DNA from: Candidatus Omnitrophota bacterium
Lineage (GTDB): Bacteria; Omnitrophota; Gorgyraeia; Gorgyraeales; Gorgyraeaceae
NCBI GenBank assembly: GCA_026387235.1
Contig: JAPLMD010000025.1
Coordinates: 1-33,361 of the forward strand
Reading direction: 5' to 3'
DNA length: 33,361 bases
The position numbers and the translations under genes are program-made. A model generated the notes under the pieces. That model did not search any database, was not told the origin of the DNA, and saw only the letters and a program-made list of their open reading frames with translations. How positions within the stretch are numbered: the stretch's first letter is position 1; the number at the start of each line of letters is the position of its first letter. This document shows positions 32,007 to 33,361 of this stretch, piece by piece.

Positions 32007-32684
32007 TTATAAGCTGAGTTTCTTGGCTTGCTCCTGTATTTTATTTTTGAAACTGCCGTCTAAAACCAAGCTGCCTATAAGAGTAATGTCCCGGCTCAAC
32101 ACCTCTTTTATCTTCTTGGATAATAGCTTGCGCTGTTCTTCATTTAAATCAAATGCCGACTTGATGTTTATCTCATGAATATCTTCTGCGACAGACAATC
32201 GCTCCAGTTGATTAAAACCATTTTTAATAAGTTCGTTAAGCCAGTGGATATGCACAATTTGCTTGAACTCCTCAGGGAGAACATACTGGGTTAGCTCGCA
32301 AGCCTTGCTAACTGCTTCTCTTGCAATTCTCTCTTCTATCTCCGAGATAAGAAGCTGGCGCGACTTGTCCGCCTGTTTCATCATTTCTTCGCCTTTAACC
32401 CTGGTCTTGCTCAATATGTCATCCCTCTCTTTTTCTGCCTGTTTAATAATGCTTTCTTTGAGCTGCTGAGCTTCGCCCTGGGCCTTAGATAATATCTCCT
32501 GGGTTTTCTGCTTTAAATCTTCGAGCCTTTTTTGGAGATCTTGTTCTTTTTTGGAATAATCCTGATTCAATTCGTCGAGATGTTTTGTAGCCAATATCAC
32601 GTTCTGATTAAGTATTCGGCGCAGAATAAATATAAGGCCGCCAAATATAACGATTTGCAATAATACTAACGAAGCAATAAGCAT
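32007..32684 (-). CDS. F-type ATPase b-delta fusion-like peripheral stalk subunit
   Basis: N-terminal TM + long charged coiled coil (b-like), then delta-like C-terminus INIKSAFDLNEEQRKLLSKKIKEVLSRDITL...VLDGSFKNKIQE. Confidence 0.82.
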   Translation of the reverse strand: MLIASLVLLQIVIFGGLIFILRRILNQNVILATKHLDELNQDYSKKEQDLQKRLEDLKQKTQEILSKAQGEAQQLKESIIKQAEKERDDILSKTRVKGEEMMKQADKSRQLLISEIEERIAREAVSKACELTQYVLPEEFKQIVHIHWLNELIKNGFNQLERLSVAEDIHEINIKSAFDLNEEQRKLLSKKIKEVLSRDITLIGSLVLDGSFKNKIQEQAKKLSL

Positions 32685-32736: not shown

Positions 32737-32778
32737 ATATATAAGAATAAGGAGGCCTTTTGAAAAGTTACATTAGTA

Positions 32779-32938
32779 TCTTTCTGGCTGGCAGGCTTTC
32801 GAAAAGACGTTTGGACGCCCCAGCGAGGCGTCCTGCACTCACTGTTTCTTCTCGCTCGCCCGATATCTTTGAGCTTTCGGCGGGCACCCTGCCCGCTCGA
32901 AGAAACAATGCTTTTCTCAAACCTGCCAGCTAGAAAGA
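32779..32938. ncRNA. Candidate structured RNA / complex inverted-repeat element A
   Basis: Nested stems: 32779-32798 with 32919-32938 (18/20); 32801-32806/32911-32916; 32813-32819/32827-32833; 32843-32851/32899-32907; 32880-32886/32890-32896. Confidence 0.6.
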
Positions 32939-32966
32939 GCTAACATTTTACAACGTATATCTATGA

Positions 32967-33147
32967 GCCAGGCTGGGGCCTGAGGCACATTTGAGAGGTT
33001 TCGGCATAATTGATTCTTTGGATATAGGTGCGCAAGGGATTACGGCGAAGTTTTTTATACTGTCAAGACTACCTGCAGTATAAAAAACGAGCCGTAAACC
33101 GTAGTGCACGGCGAAACCATCTCTGTGCCGAACGGCCCCAGCCTGGC
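32967..33147. ncRNA. Candidate structured RNA / complex inverted-repeat element B
   Basis: Nested stems: 32967-32980/33134-33147 (14 bp); 32984-32989/33124-33129; 32993-33003/33112-33123 (one bulge); 33028-33031/33106-33109; 33040-33046/33091-33097; 33050-33062/33076-33088 (13 bp). Confidence 0.65.
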
Positions 33148-33204: not shown

Positions 33205-33361
33205 TTAAGAAGCGGTGAATAATTGAAAGACTATAAGCATGGCAATGACTGACAATGCCTGAGCAAATAAAAGAGCGATAACCATTGCGGTAAATATCTT
33301 TGGCGCGCTGGAAGGATTTCTGCCTAAAGCATTGATGCTGGCATAACTGCTGGCGGCAAAT
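33205..33361 (-). CDS. F-type ATPase subunit c, C-terminal half (5' end outside window)
   Basis: Own translation: FAASSYASINALGRNPSSAPKIFTAMVIALLFAQALSVIAMLIVFQLFTAS*; loop GRNP plus TM2 alignable with c subunits (ARQP..AxAE-S/A..). No ORF-track entry because the start is off-window. Confidence 0.82.
   Translation of the reverse strand, partial: FAASSYASINALGRNPSSAPKIFTAMVIALLFAQALSVIAMLIVFQLFTAS

Follow-up and report, generated by a model that had tools for sequence, protein, structure and literature searches.

A probable family of interspersed palindromic DNA repeats in Omnitrophota, with one copy between the c and b-delta genes of an atp operon

The atp site and its two repeats

The window, by which we mean the whole 33,361-nucleotide stretch of Candidatus Omnitrophota DNA that was analysed, ends within an F1Fo operon carried on the minus strand. 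The c-subunit gene, recognised by the motif LGRNPSSAP and cut off by the end of the contig, has its stop codon at 33205-33207, and the b-delta-type gene downstream encodes a product without a Pfam match. The gap between the two genes is 520 bp and contains two palindromic repeats (Table 1), here called E and B, of which B was not mentioned in the sequence-only reading. Judging from matches to the b-delta gene across the genus, which were strong in G000 and G008 only and weak in G011, this operon seems to be patchily distributed.

Table 1. Genes and repeats at the atp site, in window positions
Feature	Position	Strand	Remarks
b-delta-type gene, downstream, 225 aa	32007..32684	-	start at 32684
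Palindromic repeat B	32757..32958	+	arms 32779-32806 and 32911-32938
E copy (imperfect palindrome, ~181-190 bp)	32967..33147	+	arms, folding, genome copies, covariance model
Outer stem P1, 5' arm (GCCAGGCTGGGGCC)	32967..32980	+	lineage-variable, complementarity kept
Stem P2, 5' side (GGCACATTTGAGAGGTTTCGGC, bulged)	32984..33005	+	predicted structure
Stem P3, 5' side GTGCGC-AAG-GG-A-TTACGGC	33028..33046	+	first six pairs covary class-wide
Inner hairpin P4, 13-bp arms	33050..33088	+	lineage-dependent sequence
Stem P3, 3' side GCCGTAA-A-CC-GTA-GTGCAC	33091..33109	+	within most conserved stretch
Stem P2, 3' side	33110..33129	+	predicted structure
Outer stem P1, 3' arm	33134..33147	+	lineage-variable, complementarity kept
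atp c-subunit gene, 3' part, truncated by contig end	33205..33361	-	motif LGRNPSSAP read from sequence

The nested palindrome that had been read from the letters is real, with exact outer 14-bp arms and exact inner 13-bp arms (33050-33062/33076-33088). Its plus strand, which is the strand reading CCGTAAACCG and is antisense to the atp genes, folds as RNA at -101.8 kcal/mol (z -11.8) and its minus strand at -94.8 kcal/mol (z -12.5), and on both strands none of 200 shuffles folds as well. The overlapping 75-aa ORF had been judged an unlikely explanation. Its translation has no Pfam match, and the frame would not be kept because E copies differ in length by 1-3 nt. In G008 the orthologous E copy occupies the corresponding position; both partners have changed in at least two pairs of P1 and in one of P4, with pairing kept, and only the right end of B remains there. 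The c-b gap of G023 is about 70 bp long and is without E.

Copies, architecture and placement of E

A nucleotide search of the 1.5-Mb genome to which the window belongs returned about 28 E copies, full or partial, most of them at 83-100% identity and several interrupted by contig ends; a covariance model returned 23. The contigs of G000 that end in or beside E are L002, L008, L018, L019, L020, L023, L026, L027 and L029, and because so many do, the true copy number is probably above that counted, with E itself breaking the assembly. Repeat B is present in the genome as 4-6 partial copies. Beyond this genome, nucleotide-level matches to E were found in 21 of 99 genomes, 10 of them among the 12 genomes of the genus (own included), and of 285 genomes sampled from the phylum the covariance model found E in 63, every one of which belongs to the window's class. 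A scan of 84,980 named species genomes with a 25-base core pattern yielded at least 80 loci, and the 80 matches listed carry Omnitrophota titles except for one "uncultured bacterium" and one "bacterium" MAG. Viral contigs, plasmids and phages gave no match to E. The Rfam search that had been proposed also came back empty: no covariance model matched the window's E at gathering score, E-values of up to 10 brought chance matches only, and E in 20 loci of relatives had no match either, so that E was rejected as an Rfam RNA. The open-access literature contained no description of such repeats in Omnitrophota. The E family is apparently undescribed and apparently occurs in Omnitrophota genomes only.

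Most E copies are about 165-250 bp long and share one order of parts. From the outside inwards these are P1, a short loop, the bulged P2, a linker AAAN that is sometimes longer, P3, GA..GA and the hairpin P4. Conservation is highest in the P3 stem and its loops, with the family consensus GTSYGC/AAG/GG/N/TTACGGC against GCCGTAA/A/CC/GNA/GCRSAC, and a GNAG motif is conserved at the foot of P3, where it is internal and variable (GTAG, GCAG, GAAG). Terminal inverted repeats, the arms of P1, are present in nearly all copies. They usually span 10-30 bp, with a maximum of about 45 bp, and their sequence varies among lineages and among copies within one genus (GCCAGGCTGG.., GTCTTTTTGCC.., GATATTTTGC.., TTTGCGC.., CGGTAGC..) with pairing retained. 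The sequence of the P4 hairpin likewise varies among lineages. Distant P4 hairpins (L050, L085, L122, L045, L092) have in common the motif GAA(A)CTGACCG..GGGAATT(T)C, which, if transcribed, could fold into an internal loop of kink-turn type.

The neighbours of E include purH, uvrA, tmk, pgk and many other genes. Among 107 classified intergenic copies, 86 lie in co-directional, 15 in divergent and 6 in convergent gaps, one further copy lying inside an ORF, and in the 86 co-directional cases the upstream stop codon is the closer gene end 60 times; all these counts rest on gene calls that were simple, uncurated ORF choices. Background gaps of at least 150 bp at the same loci are similarly distributed (129, 15 and 3), so the placement of E mostly follows the genome.

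Orientation is unusual. Of 64 copies outside the window's family, 60 take the majority orientation of their own genome (shuffled mean 49.9; 0/5000), which is antisense to genes in most genomes and all sense in G173, G218 and one other. Within the window's family the orientation is mixed, 23 to 22. Of the 22 copies on long contigs, the C-rich strand carries 21, and the remaining one belongs to G173. In G143, G202, G248, G161 and G173, one strand carries about 90% or more of the gene length over 20-40 kb, and these stretches show a replication-type GC3 skew, a very strong co-orientation of genes with replication. Nearly all genes run with replication, so replication and transcription are inseparable as the cause of the orientation. 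The pattern would fit insertion through single-stranded DNA, a step that we infer; uniform orientation could instead come from selection on the transcript.

Orthologous junctions vary in their content of E. Between purH and folC, E is present in G000, G001, G002, G008, G009 and G010 and absent from G006, G007 and G011, a short remnant of B perhaps being kept in G006. In G003 the site is cleanly empty, with stop and start codons a few nucleotides apart, and in G004 it holds B without E. The junction in G020 (L205) carries a different repeat, ATTCCGGCGAAAGCCGGAAT, at a place that E uses elsewhere, and the site after purH is an insertion hot spot. On the 3' side of uvrA, no copy is present in G011, a single one in each of G000, G001 and G006, and a tandem pair in G010; another palindromic insert splits the copy of G004. 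A near-perfect palindrome, GGGACAGCG..CCATTT ... AAATGG..CGCTGTCCC, breaks E copies at L210 and L039/L131 (G004), and represents a third repeat family. Since both junctions are empty in some relatives and occupied in others, E copies appear to come and go, a movement read from comparing junctions rather than from a transposition event caught directly. In several genomes E lies inside the apical loop of B (L199, L200, L201), and at L197, the purH-folC locus of G004, B stands alone; E may prefer, or form part of, hairpin tips.

Watson-Crick covariation and the structured-RNA alternative

The pairing of E was followed in 18 diverse sequences, in which 92.2% of cells pair. Double changes affect 15 pairs (shuffles: 7.7) and 56 cells (shuffles: 17.4), values reached by 0/500 shuffles, and one-sided changes are confined to 3 cells. 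The sequence-only reading had put forward a structured RNA whose homologues would show compensatory changes; such changes do exist, and the proposal is not refuted from that side, but they almost never pass through G-U. G.T makes up 0.8% and A.C 0.6% of E stems (100 strand-correct rows, two loop positions omitted). The control was RNase P RNA from the window's class, with 11.7% G.T and 1.1% A.C (tRNAs and the small SRP RNA yielded too few sequences). At pairs switching between A-T and G-C, intermediates number 5/491 in E versus 82/781 in RNase P. Since the model shaped the E alignment and each genome contributes related copies, these cells are not independent, and what carries the argument is how large the contrast is. 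Two further observations on RNAs were made in passing: RF00169, the Rfam small bacterial SRP RNA, had no match in any of the 79 relatives searched (G000-G078), and a c-di-GMP-I riboswitch lies near an E copy in G018 (L043:1306-1402, minus strand).

Wobble pairs also bear on the strand that matters. In 205 copies they divide 72 versus 82 with respect to the transcribed strand, with no enrichment, and on the plus strand G.T stands slightly above A.C (115 to 75). An earlier small sample had leaned towards RNA (Fisher p 0.06), and this lean is gone in the 205 copies. Because the covariation of E is strictly Watson-Crick, with G.T and A.C equally rare, the constraint looks like one on a DNA palindrome and not like that on an ordinary structured RNA.

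A structured RNA family, whether an mRNA 3' hairpin or a free small RNA, that is incidentally multicopy and acts in transcripts either way round is nonetheless the rival that survives best, and we regard it as unlikely. Conserved internal loops, strong folding, a position mostly inside operons with the upstream stop codon nearer, and uniform orientation in many genomes would all suit such an RNA, and a hairpin needed in both transcript orientations would avoid G-U just as a DNA palindrome does, so that E may also act at the RNA level. Against it stand the near absence of G-U, the independence of wobble from the mRNA strand, the lack of any Rfam match for the window's E or for E in 20 loci of relatives, and a polarity that differs between lineages, with both ways nearly balanced in the window's family, which is unexpected for a sequence-specific RNA.

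Mobility and comparison with known repeats

E occurs in multiple copies, its structure is maintained by covariation that is strictly Watson-Crick, and its orthologous junctions are polymorphic. The window's E is best read as a member of a family of non-autonomous palindromic DNA repeats interspersed in Omnitrophota genomes, at a probability of about 0.72. On this reading E spreads as a repeat family and is no switch of the atp operon. The sequence-only reading had also raised a mobile element, and multiplicity and polymorphism agree with that suggestion; the target-site duplications it predicted are absent. Among 128 copies, none has a duplication of at least 6 nt at the palindrome ends, and 5-nt direct repeats number 4 against 1 expected. 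An autonomous parent, carrying a gene within P4 or between half-cores, was absent from the loci examined, where the P4 spacer is at most 104 nt.

As a means of spread, we infer an enzyme encoded elsewhere that would act in trans, recognising the conserved core with its fixed mismatched loops. The recognised form would probably be a single-strand or cruciform hairpin, which the enzyme would copy into new intergenic sites. E would then persist mainly in operon-internal gaps, where it may do little harm, and once transcribed would form a strong hairpin that may alter the stability of adjoining mRNA segments, as reported for ERIC. A dedicated role in the atp operon is unnecessary. More tentatively, E might be a new type of mobile DNA hairpin, in which mobility is signalled by the conserved, mismatched centre instead of the ends. 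An Omnitrophota enzyme would then recognise the folded single strand, copy it with a strand polarity that replication determines, and accept any outer arms as long as they pair.

Two established kinds of mobile repeat are improbable sources. A REP/REPIN-type repeat moved by Y1 (RAYT) transposases would be in keeping with the Y1 genes of 80/98 relatives, the conserved GNAG at the foot of P3 and an orientation bias that would suit a single-strand mechanism. REPs also resemble E as extragenic, non-autonomous hairpin repeats whose arms vary with pairing kept. However, none of 20 Y1 genes has E or B within about 1.5 kb, whereas REPs are described as flanking RAYT genes in every case (PMC2817692); G019 has E and no Y1 match; and E, at about 180 bp against 20-40 bp, is several times the length of a REP, its GNAG being internal and not a GTAG-type head. 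E was rejected as a REP on length and on the absence of RAYT genes nearby. A slightly poorer candidate is a MITE derived from an ordinary DDE transposon, the parent having been lost or left unassembled. Size, inverted-repeat ends, multiplicity and intergenic location fit, and bacterial MITEs such as Correia/NEMIS and RUP are likewise short and non-autonomous, but E has neither the target-site duplication nor, among the loci examined, a parent with an internal gene. Moreover, its ends, unlike ordinary transposon ends, are not common to lineages, and an architecture of fixed centre and free ends is the reverse of ordinary MITEs; on the lack of duplication and the conserved centre, both defining features, E was rejected as a MITE. 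Least credible of all is the earlier proposal of an operon-internal riboregulator setting the ATP synthase c:F1 ratio, for which the position between c and b-delta and the pairing-preserving changes in G008 could be cited, but which is unsupported because the same E sits in many unrelated operons and which the E-free gap of G023 also speaks against.

Other known systems share single features with E. Integron attC sites have arms that vary yet stay Watson-Crick paired around conserved unpaired positions. The arms of E do likewise, although E lies between housekeeping genes and not in cassette arrays. Rickettsia palindromic elements are lineage-restricted long stem-loops of 105-146 bp for which target-site duplication is not established; they are known inside protein genes, whereas E is almost entirely intergenic. 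The closest likeness is to ERIC/IRU, imperfect palindromes of 100-200 bp that occur in tens of copies, are lineage-restricted and lie between genes in transcribed regions, as E probably does with 86/107 of its copies in co-directional gaps. ERIC has 7-bp terminal repeats, TA ends and a target-site duplication (PMC2229807); E differs in its long variable arms, its lack of duplication and its fixed core with mismatched loops. Orientation-dependent effects on mRNA have been reported for ERIC-type repeats (PMC2229807, PMC10969869). Compared with ERIC by description, E appears to be most like these palindromic repeats and would be a new family within this broad category, unusual in its architecture.

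E is a repeat family dispersed widely through a phylum that has been little studied. A test for covariation that is Watson-Crick only distinguishes DNA palindromes from RNA genes, and it carries a caution, namely that covariation by itself can mislabel repeats as structured RNAs. Finally, the fixed orientation of E within genomes makes single-strand, replication-linked mobility directly testable.
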